32,237 nucleotides of DNA from assembly GCF_015482765.1 (NCBI RefSeq), contig NZ_JADMLB010000010.1:1-32237 (forward strand). Direction: 5' to 3'. Below the pieces are notes generated by a model. That model saw only the letters and a list, made by a program, of their open reading frames with translations. It had not been told where the DNA came from and searched no databases. This stretch comes from Halodesulfovibrio sp. GTDB lineage: Bacteria; Desulfobacterota; Desulfovibrionia; Desulfovibrionales; Desulfovibrionaceae. Shown piece after piece: positions 3,220 through 12,105 of this stretch (position 1 is its first letter; the number at the start of each line of letters is the position of its first letter). The position numbers were made by a program, and so were the translations under genes.

Positions 3220-4023
3220 ATGATTTCACGTAATACAGTTTGGGATAATATAGATAAAGTGCGTGGCAGCGGACCGGTCGTCCATAGCATTACGAACTAT
3301 GTTGTCATGAATTCTACCGCTAATGCTCTTTTAAGTGCGGGCGCCTCACCAATAATGGCTCATGCAAAAGAGGAACTGGAAGAGCTGGTAATTTTATCCG
3401 GTGCTCTTGTTTTAAATATCGGGACGTTAAGCCCTGCATGGATTGAGAGTATGCGCTTAGGTGCTTCTATTGCTGCTGCAAACTACAAGCCTGTGGTTCT
3501 TGATCCTGTTGGTGCCGGTGCTTCCAAATTACGCACAAGCACCTCTCTTTCCTTATTGGAAGAGGGCGGAATTTCACTTGTTCGTGGCAATGCCTCTGAG
3601 ATTATGGCACTTGCAGGTACCGGTGCCGCAACTCGCGGTGTTGATTCCTGTAATGATACAAGTGAAGCAGAGAAGAGCGCTAAAACTCTCGCAAAAAAAT
3701 ACAGATGTATTGTTGCTGTTTCCGGGTGTATTGATGTTGTAACAGATGGCGATACCGTCTACCATATTACAGGCGGTAGTGAATACATGCCGCTGGTAAC
3801 AGGTATGGGATGTATCGCGACCGCTATCTGCGGTGCACATCTTGCGATTTGTGAAGATAGATTTGCTGCGGCAGTTTCTGCAATGGGCTGTATGGCTGCT
3901 GCAGGTGGAGTTGCGGAACTTGCATCCAATGGTCCCGGCTCATTTGCCGTGCAGTTTATTGATGCACTTCATAATGTTACTGAAAACGACATAAACAGAC
4001 TTGTCGAAGTGAGGGTTGTGTAA
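3220..4023 (+). CDS. thiM: hydroxyethylthiazole kinase ThiM
   Basis: ThiM phosphorylates 4-methyl-5-(2-hydroxyethyl)thiazole, a salvage step of thiamine synthesis. The protein has 267 residues, the usual length. Ribokinase-like features are VVLDPVGAGAS, the substrate-side VRGNASEIMALAG, and the anion-hole region GMGCIATAICGAH. The family usually has GTGC where this protein has GMGC. A GAGGAAGG ribosome binding site precedes the ATG. The stop TAA overlaps the thiE ATG by one base, so the pair is translationally coupled. Confidence 0.95.
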   Translation: MISRNTVWDNIDKVRGSGPVVHSITNYVVMNSTANALLSAGASPIMAHAKEELEELVILSGALVLNIGTLSPAWIESMRLGASIAAANYKPVVLDPVGAGASKLRTSTSLSLLEEGGISLVRGNASEIMALAGTGAATRGVDSCNDTSEAEKSAKTLAKKYRCIVAVSGCIDVVTDGDTVYHITGGSEYMPLVTGMGCIATAICGAHLAICEDRFAAAVSAMGCMAAAGGVAELASNGPGSFAVQFIDALHNVTENDINRLVEVRVV

Positions 4024-4652
4024 TGAGGCAACGTGCAGATTTCTCACTTTATCTGGTAACAGATAGTAGCCGTTGTACAATGATGCCGCTTGAAGAAACT
4101 GTTGCCGCTGCTGTTCGTGGCGGCGTGACAATGGTTCAGCTGCGTGAAAAGACAATGGAAACCCGTAAATTTGTTGAATGCGCCCGTCAATTGCGTGCGT
4201 TACTTTCTCCGTTGGATATTCCTCTTATTATCAATGACCGTGTGGACATTGCGTTAGCTGTTCGAGCTGACGGTGTGCATGTTGGACAGACTGATATGCG
4301 TGTACAGGATGTGCGTGCGTTGATTGGCGGAGAAGCTATTGTCGGAATTACTGTTGAAACTCCGGAGCAGATCGAAGAAGCCAATGCGCTGGATATTGAT
4401 TACATTGGGATTTCGCCTGTGTTTTCTACTCCTTCTGTACCTCGTGATGTTAAACCATGGCAGATTCCCGGAGTGCAAAAAGCAAGAAGCCTGACCAGTC
4501 TTCCGATTGTCGGTTTTGAAGGAATTACTACTGCAAATGCAGCAGAGGTTATAGCTGCAGGAGCAGATGGAGTTGCCGTTGTGTCTGCCATTTGCGGTGC
4601 ATTGTCACCAAAGGATGCCGCAGAAGAATTGCGCAACGCAGCCTTTGTGTAA
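4023..4652 (+). CDS. thiE: thiamine-phosphate synthase ThiE
   Basis: ThiE joins hydroxymethylpyrimidine diphosphate to thiazole phosphate to give thiamine monophosphate. The 209-residue TIM barrel shows the expected motifs: MVQLREKTM, IINDRVDIALAV, DGVHVGQTD, GISPVFSTPS (phosphate binding) and VVSAI near the end. It takes the product of ThiM directly, so thiM-thiE form a compact salvage pair. No thiC, thiG or thiD is present in the window. Confidence 0.96.
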   Translation: MRQRADFSLYLVTDSSRCTMMPLEETVAAAVRGGVTMVQLREKTMETRKFVECARQLRALLSPLDIPLIINDRVDIALAVRADGVHVGQTDMRVQDVRALIGGEAIVGITVETPEQIEEANALDIDYIGISPVFSTPSVPRDVKPWQIPGVQKARSLTSLPIVGFEGITTANAAEVIAAGADGVAVVSAICGALSPKDAAEELRNAAFV

Positions 4653-4697
4653 ACAACGGGGCAGTTGAAGAACTACCTAGAGTTTTGTGAGGGGTAT

Positions 4698-5012
4698 ATG
4701 AAGATTGCTGTGGCAGCGAGAAAAAGAAACGATATGTATGTAGTAGAGCCGGTGTTTGGTCGTGCCGACATGTTTGTTATCGTTGAAAAAGGCGGTGATG
4801 CACGTGTTGTTCAGGAAAATCCTTACAGGGATGATCCAGAGGCGGCAGGGCGAAAGGTGGCTCAGTGGCTTATTAAAGAAGGCGTAAACACTGTGCTTTG
4901 TGGTGACGTGGGCGCTAAAACTCGTTTGTACCTGAGTGAAGGCGGTATTTTTTCCGGCATCGGGTATGACGGGACAGTGGATGATGCATTGAAAAGGTAC
5001 TTTGCGTCATAG
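4698..5012 (+). CDS. NifX/NifB-type dinitrogenase iron-molybdenum cofactor domain protein
   Basis: This small protein (104 residues) starts MKIAVAARKR and continues through VVEPVFGRADMFVIVE, then WLIKEGVNTVLCGDVGAKTRLYL. That is the RNase H-like fold of the NifX/NafY/NifB C-terminal family, which binds iron-molybdenum cofactor precursors or other metal clusters. A TTG 33 nt upstream is in frame, but the ATG at 4698 is preceded by TGAGGGG, so I use it. It lies 45 nt after thiE and may be cotranscribed. Standalone members are common in sulfate reducers, and many have no known partner. Its target here cannot be told from sequence. Confidence 0.82.
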   Translation: MKIAVAARKRNDMYVVEPVFGRADMFVIVEKGGDARVVQENPYRDDPEAAGRKVAQWLIKEGVNTVLCGDVGAKTRLYLSEGGIFSGIGYDGTVDDALKRYFAS

Positions 5013-5049: not shown

Positions 5050-5082
5050 GCGACACACCGGTAACGATGTGTCGCTTTTTTT
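5050..5082 (+). terminator. Intrinsic terminator after the thiM operon
   Basis: Perfect 8-bp stem GCGACACA/TGTGTCGC with a 10-nt loop, then seven T. It lies between convergent transcription units and touches the stop codon of the minus-strand regulator. Confidence 0.9.
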
Positions 5083-6943
5083 ATTGTTTTTCAATTTTCA
5101 GCTTCTGCATGCGCGATCGGAGTGTAGTTGGTTTGATTCCTAACAACTCGGCTGCGCCTCCATTTCCTTGAACCCGCCAGTTTGTTGCTTCAAGTGCCTG
5201 AACAATATTTTCCCGTTGCATTGCACTCCATTCGGCCTCGGTAATAATATCCTGAGGGCGTGGCGGTGCTGCGGGAGGCTGAGCTGGTGACTGTGCAGAG
5301 GAGTAGGCATGTACATTCATCTCCTGCGGTGGCGTAGCATGGCTGTTATCTTGAATGTAAAATTCCATGCTGCCGCTATGGGACATAATGACTGCACGTT
5401 CGACGACGTTTTGCAGTTCCCTCACGTTTCCCGGCCAGTCGTATGCTTGCAGCTTTTCAACGTGATGCGGCTTGAGCCGAGGAGGAGTGATCTTCATGCG
5501 TTCCGCTGCAAGGCTTATAAAGTGCCTTGCAAGCAGTGGAATATCGTTACGGCGCTCTCGAAGGGGTGGAACGTTGATTGGAAAGACTGAAAGTCTAAAG
5601 TATAAATCCTGTCGGAATCGTCCGGCGGCGACTTCTTTAGTAAGGTCTTTGTTGGTTGCTGCGATAATTCGTACGTTCACTTTTCTGGAGCGTTCATCAC
5701 CTACAGGTTCAAAGGTGCCTTCCTGTAATACCCGTAGCAGTTTTCCCTGAAGTTCTAGTGGGATTTCTCCAACTTCATCAAGGAAGAGAGTGCCGCCGTC
5801 TGCCATTTGGAAACGACCGACCCTGTCGCGGATTGCTCCGGTGAATGATCCTTTTACATGACCGAAGAATTCACTTTCAAAAAGTTCATGCGGAATGGCA
5901 GAACAGTTAACGCGCACAAATGCATTTTGGTTTCGTGGCGAACGGTTGTGAATTGCTCCCGCGAGGAGCTCTTTACCGGTACCGGATTCACCGAGAAGAA
6001 GTACGCTGGCATCTGTTGGAGAAACAACTTCAATTTGCTCCATCACATGGACAAGTGTGTCAGAATCTCCAATCAGGTTGTCATCAAGACGTTTCTCTTG
6101 AACCGCACGACGCAGTAATTCGTTTTCCAACTCCAATTCACCACGTAGCTTTTGAATTTCTTCAAAGGCAACCGCGTTGACCAGTGCTCGAGCTACGGTG
6201 TCTGCAAAAATTTTATGCATTTTTTGATGCATGGAATGGAGCTGCGCAAAAGGACCAACCATAGGGCGGTCATAAAACGTTGATAAGATGCCAAGGAATT
6301 CGTCGTTGTACATGACTGGAAAAGAGGAATACGCATAATATCCTTCGTCAATTGCCCAGCTGGGGCGGCTCCAGTCTTCAGGTGAAGAGCCTATGGATGG
6401 AATTCCTTTACGGCATGAATCGAAAATTGGTTCTGTAACGGGCACGAGATCATATGTCCCCAGAGCGTGTGTCCAATCAGAAGGAGAACGGTCATTAACA
6501 CCAGAGAAGGCTACGAGTTTTAACATTGATTCGGCAGAAGGGTGCGGTGTTACAATATCTGCCATTTTTTGTGTTGGACGTAACCAAAAAGCCCCCATTG
6601 TTACATGGGTTCCCTTGTAGCCAGTGCTTGCCCGCTCGATGATTTTAGAAGGGTCACGTTCATGGGCAACAGAAAGCATGAGGTCTAGAAATGGTGTGAT
6701 GTCCAGAGAGTTAAGCTTGGTCTGCAGGCGCTTATAGCTTTTAGGATGCTTTTGTACCGGTTCCTGATGCTCTATAGGCTCAGAGGGCAGAGGGAAAGGT
6801 TCCTGCTTTGAATCTTCAGGAAGTGGATAATCGCTGATGGTCACATCTCGACCTGAAAAGGTAGTGCAAAAGACACGCTCTGTTCTTTTTGAAGTCTTTT
6901 GCGTATCGCTTTTGCTATGTAACTTGTTGTCAGATGGTGCCAT
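5081..6943 (-). CDS. FhlA/NorR-like sigma-54-dependent activator (GAF-AAA+-Fis HTH)
   Basis: The protein has 620 residues. After a low-complexity N-terminus, about residues 80-250 look like a GAF-type sensor domain. A short coiled linker follows (FEEIQKLRGELELENELL), then the AAA+ sigma-54 interaction domain: Walker A GESGTGKE near 318-325, GSFTGA near 365-370, Walker B GGTLFLDE near 383-390. After a Pro-rich linker, the final 36 residues are a Fis-type helix-turn-helix with GAAELLGIKPTTLRSRM, most like FhlA-family activators. The frame extends 63 nt further upstream, but the chosen ATG has GAGGGGA 5-6 nt before it. Palindromic sites lie 21-59 bp upstream of the start, and a divergent sigma-54 promoter lies beyond them. 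No phosphoreceiver is present, so a small ligand sensed by the GAF domain is the likely input. Confidence 0.92.
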   Translation of the reverse strand: MAPSDNKLHSKSDTQKTSKRTERVFCTTFSGRDVTISDYPLPEDSKQEPFPLPSEPIEHQEPVQKHPKSYKRLQTKLNSLDITPFLDLMLSVAHERDPSKIIERASTGYKGTHVTMGAFWLRPTQKMADIVTPHPSAESMLKLVAFSGVNDRSPSDWTHALGTYDLVPVTEPIFDSCRKGIPSIGSSPEDWSRPSWAIDEGYYAYSSFPVMYNDEFLGILSTFYDRPMVGPFAQLHSMHQKMHKIFADTVARALVNAVAFEEIQKLRGELELENELLRRAVQEKRLDDNLIGDSDTLVHVMEQIEVVSPTDASVLLLGESGTGKELLAGAIHNRSPRNQNAFVRVNCSAIPHELFESEFFGHVKGSFTGAIRDRVGRFQMADGGTLFLDEVGEIPLELQGKLLRVLQEGTFEPVGDERSRKVNVRIIAATNKDLTKEVAAGRFRQDLYFRLSVFPINVPPLRERRNDIPLLARHFISLAAERMKITPPRLKPHHVEKLQAYDWPGNVRELQNVVERAVIMSHSGSMEFYIQDNSHATPPQEMNVHAYSSAQSPAQPPAAPPRPQDIITEAEWSAMQRENIVQALEATNWRVQGNGGAAELLGIKPTTLRSRMQKLKIEKQ

Positions 6944-6963
6944 TATTTCCCCTCGCTCCATTA

Positions 6964-7002
6964 TTTCGTTACGAAAAATCGTAATCAACGAAATTTCGTA
7001 AC
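6964..7002. promoter_or_regulatory. Paired palindromes, candidate FhlA-like upstream activating sites
   Basis: Four half-sites of TTTCGT/ACGAAA occur. TTTCGTTACGAAA at 6964-6976 is a palindrome with a 1-nt centre, and ACGAAATTTCGT at 6988-6999 is a perfect 12-mer. An outer repeat GTTACGAAA...TTTCGTAAC spans 6968-7002. They resemble the FhlA box as I recall it (CATTTCGTACGAAATG). They lie about -130 to -95 from the predicted sigma-54 start at 7094, a normal enhancer distance. They also lie just upstream of the divergent activator gene, so autoregulation is possible. Confidence 0.65.
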
Positions 7003-7066
7003 CCACTCAAGAGTGAGCGTCAACGGAAAAGTGTTGGTATTCGCCGGATTGCCCTGAACACCGTTT

Positions 7067-7083
7067 TTGGCACAGGTTGTGCT
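7067..7083 (+). promoter_or_regulatory. Sigma-54 (-24/-12) promoter
   Basis: TTGGCACAGGTTGTGCT has the invariant GG and GC separated by exactly 10 nt and a perfect TTGGCAC -24 element. The -12 element is GTGC instead of TTGC. It reads away from the minus-strand sigma-54 activator. The predicted start is about 7094, with no credible protein gene before the terminator at 7179. Confidence 0.7.
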
Positions 7084-7093
7084 ACTATGAAAA

Positions 7094-7216
7094 CAAAAGA
7101 ACGGTATATACCGCTCTTTTCGGTGTCAAGTCCGTGTGGTCCCTCGCTTCACGGAAATGATTCAGTCGCTTCATTTTTGACAAAAACCCAGTGTTCCCCT
7201 CACTGGGTTTTTGTCG
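7094..7216 (+). ncRNA. Candidate sigma-54-dependent small RNA, about 120 nt
   Basis: Not a known family to me; predicted from promoter, structure and terminator. From the inferred start, hairpin 1 (7095-7120) pairs AAAAGA/TCTTTT and CGGT/ACCG. Hairpin 2 (7131-7155) pairs TCCGTG/CACGGA around a pyrimidine-rich loop. A U-rich single-stranded stretch (7156-7178) follows, and hairpin 3 is the terminator (7179-7215). An ATG at 7087 opens a frame of 97 codons, but it lies upstream of the predicted start, crosses the terminator and overlaps the aminotransferase. The loops CCCTCGCT (7141-7148) and TTCCCCT (7194-7200) are complementary to the ribosome binding site region of the divergent activator. 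Expression has not been shown. Confidence 0.55.
7179..7215. terminator. Bidirectional intrinsic terminator
   Basis: Perfect 15-bp inverted repeat GACAAAAACCCAGTG/CACTGGGTTTTTGTC with the loop TTCCCCT. The GC core with flanking A/T tracts works on both strands: plus for the candidate small RNA, minus for the aminotransferase that ends at 7242. Confidence 0.85.
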
Positions 7217-7241
7217 TTCTATGTACTGATTTTTACAGCTT

Positions 7242-8369
7242 TTACGTGAGGGCTTTTTGCCACTCGTGCAGAGCTGAGATCAGCCCTTTCCATTCGTCAG
7301 GTGATTTTACCTGCATTCGTATAAATCCTTTTTCAGTGCCCGGTATATTGTCACAGAGTCGTACAAGAATCTGGCGTTGAAGCAGAAAGTCGTAGAGCTT
7401 TGCTCCGAGTTCCTTTTTTTTTAACTGACAAAATACGAAGTTTACTCCGGAGAAAATTGCGTTTGGTGCAAAGACATTTGTAGCGTGGAGTTCATCCGTG
7501 AATATTTTTCGGTAGATGCGCATTTTCGGGAGTCTTTCACGGTATCGGTGGATATTGGTAAGAAACTCAAGTCCGGCTTTTTGTGCGGAGGCTGTAACAG
7601 ACCACGGCATTTTTCCCTGTTTCAGCAGGGTGATGGTTTCGGCGTCACTTGCTGCGTAGCCTAGACGCACACCGGTGCAGTAAAAAAATTTAGTGAAGCT
7701 ATGCATGGTGACGATACGGGTAGCGGGTTTGCACCATGACTTGTACAGCTGTGTTGTTGTCTGCTCGTACTCCGGTTCGCCAAACATAAATTCCCTATAG
7801 GTTGAGTCTATCAATATATAAGGGCTTGAGATGGCTTGGAGGAGTTCTTTCATATTCGGATAGGTGACTGTGGCCGGATTATTAGGAGAGCACAACACCA
7901 CAAGGTCGTACATATCGGAATTTTTCATGTCCTCTGTTGTAGGAATAAACCCGGATGTTACCGGACATGTGAGAACATCGTATGACTCCGCGAATATTTC
8001 GCAGGCTTTTGCATATTCTGAAAACATGGGGCCTACGAGCAGGACTTTTTTAGGCTTTATCTGTTGGAATGTCAGAAAAATTGTTTCTGTTGAGCCGTGT
8101 CCAACAAGGATATTTTCAGGTTGCATCTGCTCATGCGCGGCAATAGCGGCAGTGAGGTCTGAAGCCCATGTGTCGGGGTAATGATTGTAGTCGCTGTACG
8201 CACCCTGCTTGTTGGAAAAAAGAATATTTTCTGTTATGTCACGGCACAGGGAGTTGGCATTGCTGGAAAAATCCGCAATGTCATTCAATAATGTTCCTGT
8301 TTCCCGGGCGATGCGGAACACTTCACCCCCGTGGGCGCCTTGTTGTTTGGGTGTGTTGGAATTTGTCAT
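7242..8369 (-). CDS. PLP-dependent class I/II aminotransferase (HisC/CobD-like)
   Basis: The protein has 375 residues and shows the fold type I aminotransferase pattern: GSTETIFL, CSPNNPATV with the conserved Asn, ILIDSTYREF with the cofactor-binding Asp, and HSFTKFF with the PLP lysine near residue 227, then GVRLGYAAS. The overall layout resembles histidinol-phosphate aminotransferase and L-threonine-O-3-phosphate decarboxylase (CobD). I cannot choose between them, and there is no his or cob neighbour here. A GTG 57 nt upstream is in frame but lacks a ribosome binding site; the ATG at 8369 has GGAG about 14 nt before it, a slightly long spacing. It is divergent from the regulator at 8573. 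Confidence 0.85.
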   Translation of the reverse strand: MTNSNTPKQQGAHGGEVFRIARETGTLLNDIADFSSNANSLCRDITENILFSNKQGAYSDYNHYPDTWASDLTAAIAAHEQMQPENILVGHGSTETIFLTFQQIKPKKVLLVGPMFSEYAKACEIFAESYDVLTCPVTSGFIPTTEDMKNSDMYDLVVLCSPNNPATVTYPNMKELLQAISSPYILIDSTYREFMFGEPEYEQTTTQLYKSWCKPATRIVTMHSFTKFFYCTGVRLGYAASDAETITLLKQGKMPWSVTASAQKAGLEFLTNIHRYRERLPKMRIYRKIFTDELHATNVFAPNAIFSGVNFVFCQLKKKELGAKLYDFLLQRQILVRLCDNIPGTEKGFIRMQVKSPDEWKGLISALHEWQKALT

Positions 8370-8572
8370 AATGATAAAAATTGCTCCATGAATGCAAAGT
8401 GCAGTGTGGCAGGGAGTGCAGCACACGGATGAGGGTATACGTGAAGTGCATAGTATTTAAAAGAGGCGCTTCGAGTCTGCCAGTATAACAAGACTTTGCC
8501 AATCAGATGAATTTATGGCAGAGTTGATCGCTCTTTAACTTCTGTTTTTTTGATGTCACCATAGAGGATTGC

Positions 8573-10074: not shown

Positions 10075-10152
10075 GTACACCGGATGCCGGTGTACTGCGG
10101 CATATCGTATGTGACCAACAATATCGTTTGAACAATGGGTAGACGGCTACCC
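10075..10152 (+). promoter_or_regulatory. Two hairpins in the aconitase leader
   Basis: GTACACCGG/CCGGTGTAC (10075-10095, 3-nt loop) is a perfect dyad. GGGTAG/CTACCC (10137-10152, 4-nt loop) lies 8 nt upstream of the AGAGGGA ribosome binding site of the aconitase gene. Neither has a T-tract, so they are not simple terminators. They may be an operator or a translation-control element. Confidence 0.35.
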
Positions 10153-10173
10153 GTAGCGAAAGAGGGACAAAGG

Positions 10174-12105
10174 ATGCCACAGAACGTAACACAAAAGATT
10201 ATTGCCGGACATCTGGTCTCCGGAACAATGAGTGCGGGCAGCGAAATTGAGCTGCGAATTGACCAGACTCTGACGCAGGATGCTACTGGAACAATGGCAT
10301 GTCTGCAGTTTGAAGCATTAGGTGTAGACCGTGTTAAGACAGACCTTTCTGTAAGTTATGTTGACCATAACACGTTGCAGATGGGCTTTAGAAACCCCGA
10401 TGATCACCGCTATCTTAAAACTGTTGCAGAAAAATACGGTATTGTATTTTCTCCTGCCGGTACCGGTATCTGTCACCAGCTTCATCTTGAAAATTTCGGT
10501 AAACCGGGTGCAACTCTGGTTGGCTCTGACAGCCATACACCAACTGCCGGCGGCTTAGGTTCCCTTGCAATGGGAGCTGGAGGCTTGTCTGTTGCGTTGG
10601 CAATGGCTGGTGAACCATACACCATTACCATGCCAAAAGTTGTTCGTGTCTATCTTGAAGGCGAACTGACTGGCTGGGCATCTGCAAAAGATGTTATTTT
10701 GCACTTACTGGGCAAGCTCACTGTAAAAGGCGGCGTTGGTAAAGTCTTTGAATTTGCCGGCCCCGGTGTTGCTTCCCTCTCTGTCCCTGAACGTGCAGTT
10801 ATCACGAATATGGGGGCTGAACTCGGCGCTACTACTTCTATCTTCCCGAGTGATGAAAATACACGTGAATTCCTTACCCGCATGGGACGTCCTGAAGACT
10901 GGACTAAACTTATTGCGGATGAAGGTGCTGAGTACGACGAAGAAATTCGCATTACACTGAACGATCTTGAGCCGCTTGTTGCTAAACCGCACATGCCGGA
11001 TCAGGTTGTTACTGTAGCCAGCCTTGCTGGTACCAAAGTCAGTCAGGTAGCTATCGGCTCCTGTACGAACTCTTCCTATGCAGACCTTGCTTCTGTTGCC
11101 AAGTTGTTTGCAGGGAAGCATGTTAAATTTGAAACTGATACGCTGATCAGCCCCGGCTCCAAGCAGGTGTTGAAAATGCTGACTCGCGAGGGCCTGCTCG
11201 AGAATATTATCGATTCCGGCGCGCGCCTTTTAGAGTGTTCATGCGGCCCTTGTATCGGAATGGGCGGTTCCCCTGTTTCAGAAGGTGTGTCTGTACGTAC
11301 CTTTAATAGAAACTTTGAAGGACGTTCCGGCACAAAGGATGCGCAGGTGTTCCTTGTGAGCCCATTGACTGCGGCAATGGCTGCATTACATGGTGAGTTC
11401 ACAGATCCTGCGACTTGGGGCGAAGCTCCGGAGATTCCTGAACTGCCTAAATCTATCCCGTCTATTAGGGACTTGTTTATCTTCCCGCCTGAAGATGGTT
11501 CGAATGTTGAAGTTGTGCGCGGGCCGAATATTGTGCCGCTTGAACAATTCGCAGCTGTTGAAGCAGACATTGATGCCAATGTTCTGATTGTAGCGGATGA
11601 TAATATTACCACTGACCATATTATGCCTGCCGGTGCTGTGATTACAGCTTTGCGTTCTAATGTACCGGCGATCAGTGAACATGTATTTGAACGAATGGAT
11701 GCTTCATTTGCCAGCCGTGCACGCGGCACCGAAAACGGTGTTATTGTTGCCGGCGAAAACTATGGTCAGGGTTCTTCTCGAGAACATGCAGCACTTGCAC
11801 CGCGCCATTTAGGTGTTCGTGCTGTTGTAGCTAAATCTTTTGCGCGCATTCACCGTGCAAACCTTGTTAACTTCGGCATCCTTCCGCTTATGCTGGTGGA
11901 TAAAGAAGCGTACGCAGAGTTTGTACAGGAAGAGGCCATTACGATTCCTGCACTTGCCCTTGCAGCGGGTGAGCCGGTTGAACTGGTGCTTTCTTCCGGA
12001 AAGCGTGTAGCTGTTACAAACGATTTGACGCAAAAAGAACTGGATATAATTAGAGCAGGGGGTCTGCTCAATTACATCCGATTCTCTAAAAGGCGTGAAG
12101 CCTAG
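10174..12105 (+). CDS. Aconitate hydratase, Aquifex-type
   Basis: Aconitase isomerises citrate and isocitrate with a [4Fe-4S] cluster in the cytoplasm. The 643-residue length fits the short aconitase subfamily often called Aquifex-type; AcnA and AcnB are longer. Motifs in order are VGSDSHTPTAGG, GSCTNSSYADL (first cluster Cys, near residue 297), CSCGPCIGMGG (other two cluster cysteines, near 355-360), then the swivel domain with GENYGQGSSREHAA and KSFARIHRANLVNFGILPL. An in-frame ATG 39 nt upstream lacks a good ribosome binding site, while the ATG at 10174 has GAGGGA about 8 nt before it. The ppiD-like gene follows 41 nt downstream. Confidence 0.95.
   Translation: MPQNVTQKIIAGHLVSGTMSAGSEIELRIDQTLTQDATGTMACLQFEALGVDRVKTDLSVSYVDHNTLQMGFRNPDDHRYLKTVAEKYGIVFSPAGTGICHQLHLENFGKPGATLVGSDSHTPTAGGLGSLAMGAGGLSVALAMAGEPYTITMPKVVRVYLEGELTGWASAKDVILHLLGKLTVKGGVGKVFEFAGPGVASLSVPERAVITNMGAELGATTSIFPSDENTREFLTRMGRPEDWTKLIADEGAEYDEEIRITLNDLEPLVAKPHMPDQVVTVASLAGTKVSQVAIGSCTNSSYADLASVAKLFAGKHVKFETDTLISPGSKQVLKMLTREGLLENIIDSGARLLECSCGPCIGMGGSPVSEGVSVRTFNRNFEGRSGTKDAQVFLVSPLTAAMAALHGEFTDPATWGEAPEIPELPKSIPSIRDLFIFPPEDGSNVEVVRGPNIVPLEQFAAVEADIDANVLIVADDNITTDHIMPAGAVITALRSNVPAISEHVFERMDASFASRARGTENGVIVAGENYGQGSSREHAALAPRHLGVRAVVAKSFARIHRANLVNFGILPLMLVDKEAYAEFVQEEAITIPALALAAGEPVELVLSSGKRVAVTNDLTQKELDIIRAGGLLNYIRFSKRREA

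Follow-up and report, generated by a model that had tools for sequence, protein, structure and literature searches.

A conserved, very probably sigma-54-driven small RNA gene with a probable dedicated activator in Halodesulfovibrio and a second genus of its family

Here we describe a small RNA (sRNA) gene in a 32,237-nucleotide (nt) stretch of Halodesulfovibrio sp. DNA (contig NZ_JADMLB010000010.1, assembly GCF_015482765.1; the whole stretch is hereafter the window), situated in the gap (6941-7216) between a minus-strand gene for a sigma-54 activator and a convergent minus-strand aminotransferase-like gene. Sequence comparison indicates that it is very probably a conserved sRNA gene, driven by sigma-54 and served by a dedicated activator. 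We propose, with a probability of roughly two in three, that the pair forms a dedicated module in which a GAF-type sigma-54 activator turns on an Hfq-independent sRNA whose UCCC loops pair with G-rich ribosome-binding sites. In this module the activator would sense a signal, bind two or three ACGA-N4-TCGT operators about 70-120 base pairs (bp) 5' of the promoter and turn on a single sRNA of ~120 nt, divergent from its own gene. The sRNA would display two UCCC hairpin loops (in hairpin 2 and in the terminator) and an invariant, unpaired 18-nt linker. By base-pairing to G-rich ribosome-binding sites, the two loops would most likely keep target messages from being translated, with no need for Hfq, in the manner of LhrC in Listeria. 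In one clade of the genus the ribosome-binding site of the activator itself is a predicted target, which would give a negative feedback loop.

The promoter, the putative operators, the RNA structure, their conservation and the co-occurrence of RNA and activator are evident in the sequences compared, as is the failure to find an Hfq gene. A DNA search with 401 bp returned matches in all ten genomes of the genus, the source genome included, and promoter, RNA and divergent activator recur in each; in an oriented alignment, all ten have the promoter with its operator region as well as hairpin 2, the linker and the terminator. A covariance model built from these ten genomes (R1) and searched in 247 genomes of the family recovered the same ten, eight genomes of a second genus (g50, with loci of 67-70% G+C) and one weak match. 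A model of all 18 loci (R2), searched in 348 genomes of the order, scored at least 84 bits in 18 genomes, the same 18, and gave weak matches of at most 41 bits in 10 more; both searches used stricter filters, which lose some weak matches. A first-pass annotation of the window had suggested such a search of related genomes, and its outcome is strong matches in 18 genomes of two genera. The weak R2 matches, with E values from 1e-5 to 0.01 in these 10 further genomes, were not counted as homologs, since the operators are lacking: the operator occurs in none of the 12 weak loci inspected, and the promoter form TGGCAY-N5-TTGC in only two (L100 and L103) within the part inspected.

A profile of 16 activator orthologs, with the best three candidates scored per genome, matched 50 of the 348 order genomes at E up to 1e-140. 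Matches of at least 910 bits were confined to 17 genomes, all within the 18 that bear the RNA, and the next score was 598; the lone RNA-bearing genome without a strong match is 75% complete. The lower-scoring group, found also in some RNA-bearing genomes, looks like a set of paralogs. The activator gene is adjacent to the RNA and divergent from it in 15 of 18 genomes (9/10 in the genus, 6/8 in g50); in the three exceptions, G005, G162 and G170, a contig end or a stretch of N is close to the RNA. Opposite a homolog of 47% identity in G023 there is, by eye, a sigma-54-like site followed by a protein-coding frame, and the RNA core was not found in the 9 kb examined there.

The best evidence that the RNA promoter would be the one target of the activator is the paired operator ACGAnnnnTCGT, which each of the ten genus genomes has here and nowhere else, a backward-read control giving no match; uniqueness here refers to the paired form, single operators elsewhere being possible. 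The description of the locus as self-contained is upheld by this result together with the co-occurrence of activator and RNA. Scanned across loci as ACGR-N4-TCGT, two or three operators are present in 17 of 18 loci, and L050 has one, beside a run of N. Operator centres lie 75, 92 and, where a third is present, 105 bp from the GG of the promoter in most loci of both genera; G002, G009 and G005 depart from this by 2 to 13 bp and L050 by 1 bp.

The promoter had been annotated with exact GG-N10-GC spacing and a start at about 7094, with which the sequence agrees, the start following from the positions of GG and GC. The promoter match alone, taken without conservation, is no better than chance in 32 kb: with at most one mismatch the motif has 1 match in the window, where 20 shuffles average 1.8, and with at most two mismatches 16 matches against 21 expected. 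It stands above chance because it is conserved, GG-N10-GC being present in all 18 homologous loci with 76-94% identity, the conservation in relatives that the first-pass annotation had wished to see checked. The 60 bases 3' of the RNA reach only 48-63% identity in these loci, and the spacer 5' of the promoter has 70-83% in close species and 51-64% beyond. An rpoN gene is present in the source genome. Between operators and promoter, GTCAACGGAAAAGTGTTGGTAT (window 7019-7040) is kept in six close species and not beyond; it is possibly a site for a bending protein.

The RNA (7094-7216) folds at -48.5 kcal/mol (z = -7.96), and 0/200 shuffles were equally stable. Its annotated length of about 120 nt, its three hairpins with a U-rich gap before the last, and the perfect terminator ending near 7215 were all recovered (Table 1). 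The hairpin almost at its first base is present in the window and is lineage-specific, so that of the expected hairpin conservation only hairpin 2 and the terminator extend to all ten genus genomes. Covariation was assessed on an alignment of these ten genomes (8 distinct rows). All 191 structure cells pair (100%) in the MAFFT alignment, against 39-51% in slid controls; 19 cells are changed on both sides, against a shuffled mean of 7.8, with 0/500 shuffles as high; and five pairs show a double change, all in the terminator stem. The figure for the 18-row alignment is 97%, with the reservation that this alignment had been fitted to the model. Within the genus the stem of the terminator varies and its loop, UUCCCCUC in the window species, is constant, which one would not expect of a terminator loop. 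Both loop motifs, UCCCUCG (hairpin 2) and UCCCC (terminator loop), are found in 18/18 rows, the terminator loop of G070 being shifted.

The claim that the interval holds no protein gene is true only in part, since a 97-amino-acid (aa) open frame (7087-7380) crosses the RNA. This frame was rejected as a small protein because neither its start codon nor its length is kept among relatives. In six close species one frame is open through the RNA, as near-identical sequence predicts, with lengths of 42-100 aa; an ATG stands at the start only in the species of the window, four have GTG without a visible Shine-Dalgarno (SD) sequence, and one uses another ATG. In clade 2 of the genus the frame is shifted by indels, and long frames (up to 452 aa) run into downstream DNA. 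The linker is kept even at wobble positions, and clade 2 has TTG in place of its putative ATG.

Table 1. Features of the sRNA locus, in window coordinates.
Feature	Position	Strand	Remarks
Activator gene (P0001)	5081..6943	-	620 aa; one-component sigma-54 activator; GAF - AAA+ - Fis-type helix-turn-helix, GSFTGA loop; divergent from RNA
Activator ribosome-binding site	6949..6959	-	proposed feedback target; 11-bp complement (two G-U) to sRNA 7140-7150
Putative operator 1, ACGA-N4-TCGT	6971..6982		binding inferred; centre 92 bp from GG
Putative operator 2, ACGA-N4-TCGT	6988..6999		binding inferred; centre 75 bp from GG
Sigma-54 promoter TTGGCACAGGTTGTGCT	7067..7083	+	-24 GG 7069-7070, N10, -12 GC 7081-7082
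Small RNA, ~123 nt	7094..7216	+	start placed by promoter spacing; fold z -7.96; covariance model matches
5' hairpin	7095..7120	+	lineage-specific; missing in 4/10 genus genomes
Hairpin 2	7131..7155	+	loop region with UCCCUCG (loop A, putative seed); motif in 18/18 rows
Linker UGAUUCAGUCGCUUCAUU	7158..7175	+	unpaired, 18 nt; identical in 18/18 loci
Terminator hairpin	7179..7215	+	perfect 15-bp stem; conserved UCCCC loop (loop C, putative second seed)
Aminotransferase-like gene	7242-8426	-	convergent; stop at 7242

The activator had been called FhlA-like; this was not borne out, since the FhlA model, like those of NorR and NifA, scores below its cut-off. Its assignment to the GAF type is supported through orthologs: the GAF match is weak in the activator of the window (E 0.09) and above cut-off in both orthologs tested (one from clade 2, one from g50). 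GAF structures are also among the matches of its AlphaFold model, of which only the GAF-like part was used because the model is poor (mean predicted local distance difference test score 52.6). A ten-base direct repeat, CCATTATTTC (window 6940-6967), flanks the activator ribosome-binding site; by eye, it supplies five of the six close species with a second possible ATG, upstream and in frame.

Independence from Hfq is suggested by genome content: an Hfq gene was not found in any of the 39 order genomes searched (the source genome and 38 relatives), with a search that in a control gave a signal in 5 of 14 known genomes. Potential targets were ranked by duplex energy, without messenger RNA (mRNA) structure, in 331,548 bases of the genome including the window (~9% of the genome; 262 called genes, 260 used). 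Among the 260 starts sampled, that of the activator itself ranks first for loop A (-23.4 kcal/mol) and fourth for loop C. With slightly longer segments and the same starts from the source genome (G000, whose rank counts its own start), loop A ranks the activator start 3, 3, 1, 3, 4 and 4 in six close species. Given that the match is confined to these species, feedback on the activator is a lineage-limited prediction. An extended ribosome-binding-site pattern, GYGAGGGGA-N2-9-ATG, has one match in the source genome, the activator start, and 41 rows in ten genomes against 18 for a backward control, three of them activator starts; among 30 rows compared, no gene recurs between genomes beyond one pair of 30% identity. 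This pattern is weak evidence, because it was chosen after the activator leader had been seen. In most of the six close species the sRNA loops are also strongly complementary to the starts of the neighbouring genes thiE, a nifX-like gene and aconitase (window 4023-5012, 10135-12105). On sequence they are candidate targets, and their high ranks in several close species prove little because close relatives share starts by descent.

It is important to note that several points count against the proposed mode of action. The UCCC-loop model does not account for the invariant linker, and among the four RNA segments ranked, the linker puts the activator start 10th and hairpin 1 puts it 53rd. The match to the activator ribosome-binding site is absent in clade 2 (ranks 88, 82 and 72; G005 unscored) and in g50 (ranks 118, 144, 85, 185, 133 and 142; six of eight scored), and the ranking brought up no target shared by the two genera. 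Since SD sequences are rich in purines, C-rich loops by nature complement many starts. The five pairs with double changes are not above shuffles (mean 4.1; 167/500 as high), and hairpin 2, which barely varies within the genus, gives no double changes in the ten-genome alignment and is the less well supported for it. Expression of the RNA, its activation by this protein, pairing, targets and feedback are what we infer from sequence.

The first rival gives the main role in targeting or binding to the linker instead of the UCCC loops: it would pair with several mRNAs through short seeds or bind a protein that replaces Hfq. While neighbouring segments diverge, the linker alone has 100% identity to the window at each of the 17 other loci in the two genera; mean identity drops to 72% for hairpin 2 in the second genus and to 41% (clade 2) and 70% (second genus) for the 5' segment. 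Linker identity was measured on loci located by the same motif, these loci having come from the DNA search and covariance-model matches, and the MAFFT alignment likewise shows 100%. Antisense 16-mers of the linker (at most two mismatches) have 33 matches in ten genomes, 10 of which are the RNA gene itself; the other 23 compare with 5 for a backward control. Among the 20 of these 23 loci that were compared, however, none have related surroundings, so a recurrent long target is lacking and the linker was rejected as one long antisense; it may supply short seeds or bind a protein. Given that the loop sequences are conserved too, while the terminator stem changes, we consider it unlikely that the linker is the main element. 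Less likely still is that the RNA binds and titrates a protein, by a logic like that of RsmY/CsrB with another motif. Repeated like loop motifs are typical of protein sponges, and the weak covariance-model matches L100 and L103 have still more C-rich loops behind sigma-54-like promoters; CsrA sponges, however, use GGA where the repeated motif here is CCC, and to our knowledge no C-binding partner is known in these bacteria, no search for one having been made.

That there is no sRNA at all, the hairpins being a bidirectional terminator for the convergent aminotransferase gene together with chance structure, would fit the stem arms with their A and U tracts and an end only 26 bases from the aminotransferase stop. 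In four clade-2 genomes, however, the aminotransferase homolog lies ~1.2-1.3 kb off, and these genomes still keep terminator, linker, hairpin 2 and promoter, which makes this reading very improbable. In vibrios, Qrr RNAs repress luxO, and qrr1 adjoins luxO. A sigma-54 promoter beside an activator gene could suggest a true Qrr relative, but the window has no Rfam match at gathering, Qrr is absent from the five Rfam matches at E up to 10 in 6900-7300, the Pfam matches of P0001 include no receiver domain, the LuxO model gives 285 bits against a cut-off of 800, and Hfq was not found. Qrr homology was rejected on these grounds and is extremely improbable. The likeness to LuxO-Qrr that the first-pass annotation had pointed to is thus functional, in that a sigma-54 sRNA lies beside its activator, and does not extend to family membership.

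Compared with known systems, our preferred reading, a dedicated activator with a UCCC-loop sRNA, shares with LuxO-Qrr a sigma-54-dependent sRNA and enhancer-binding protein sites 5' of the promoter (PMC10162802, PMC2680268). LuxO has a receiver domain, is fed by a phosphorelay and acts through Hfq-dependent RNAs (PMC10162802, PMC2680268), Qrr RNAs being described as requiring Hfq (PMC2680268), whereas here the activator is a GAF-type one-component protein, and no Hfq gene was found. LhrC1-5 of Listeria monocytogenes, as described in PMC4132741, are 111-114 nt long, occur in five copies and are controlled by the two-component system LisRK; a hairpin loop and the terminator loop bind target mRNA through UCCC motifs, Hfq being dispensable, and these motifs are linked to SD binding. 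The present RNA is similar in length and has UCCC in hairpin and terminator loops, although its pairing is here a prediction; it differs from LhrC in the five copies of the latter, in their LisRK control and in a third UCCC site in a single-stranded stretch (PMC4132741). By analogy, the upstream logic of the RNA would be like that of Qrr, and its probable downstream logic like that of LhrC; by the tests made it is a member of neither family.

The suggestion that such an arrangement would be new in a sulfate reducer did not hold. The sigma-54 regulome of D. vulgaris comprises, as reported by Kazakov et al. (2015, PMC4641369), 36 regulons and four non-coding RNAs (ncRNAs), and in its table an 'ncRNA upstream of DVU2357' is assigned to DVU2359, whose product is a one-component activator and which lies divergent from the promoter it serves. 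The likeness is close (a one-component sigma-54 activator divergent from a sigma-54 promoter, an ncRNA, and the same bacterial order; PMC4641369); the difference is that sequence and structure of the RNA, with a proposed mechanism and a predicted target, are given here for the present locus. Going by type and arrangement in the printed table, DVU2359 is probably an ortholog of the window activator. The window holds lpxA at 1348-2139; DVU2367, which we take to be lpxA, would place DVU2359 within several genes of lpxA, as here. An sRNA is also described downstream of the response regulator DVU0679 in Desulfovibrio (Dv_sRNA2; Rajeev et al. 2011, PMC3333781), likewise a sigma-54 regulator with an sRNA adjoining its gene; compared by description, it differs in being a two-component response regulator and in having the sRNA downstream. 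A literature search for 'DVU2359' returned PMC4641369 alone, and among the titles and abstract openings listed in searches for Halodesulfovibrio or Desulfovibrio sRNAs none describes this RNA. The arrangement has probably been listed before, as a table row, and what the present analysis adds is the sequence, structure and spread, the uniqueness of the operator, the lack of Hfq and the loop hypothesis.

Two of the weak loci deserve separate mention. The RNAs at L100:1420-1595 (genus g9) and L103:1380-1590 (genus g20) are not homologous by sequence to the window RNA; they lie behind the sigma-54-like promoters TTGGCACGCGTATTGCTAA and TTTGGCACACCCTTTGCTTA, respectively, and fold into four or more hairpins, several with C-rich loops. 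L100 follows the frame of a sigma-54 activator, and L103 lies near a sensor-kinase-like frame (by eye). There is possibly a wider class of sigma-54-driven sRNAs with C-rich loops. As a speculation that we regard as doubtful, the activator would serve solely to make one Hfq-independent UCCC-loop sRNA that limits translation of the activator, this sRNA being one of several independently evolved sigma-54 C-rich-loop sRNAs that replace an Hfq-type network in Desulfovibrionaceae.

Sulfate reducers have many sigma-54 activators of unassigned purpose, and a search of 39 genomes yielded no Hfq gene. An activator-sRNA pair with defined operators, loops and linker offers a compact system for Hfq-free sRNA control outside the Firmicutes, and the locus supplies the sequence, structure and distribution behind what had probably been a single entry of a regulon table.

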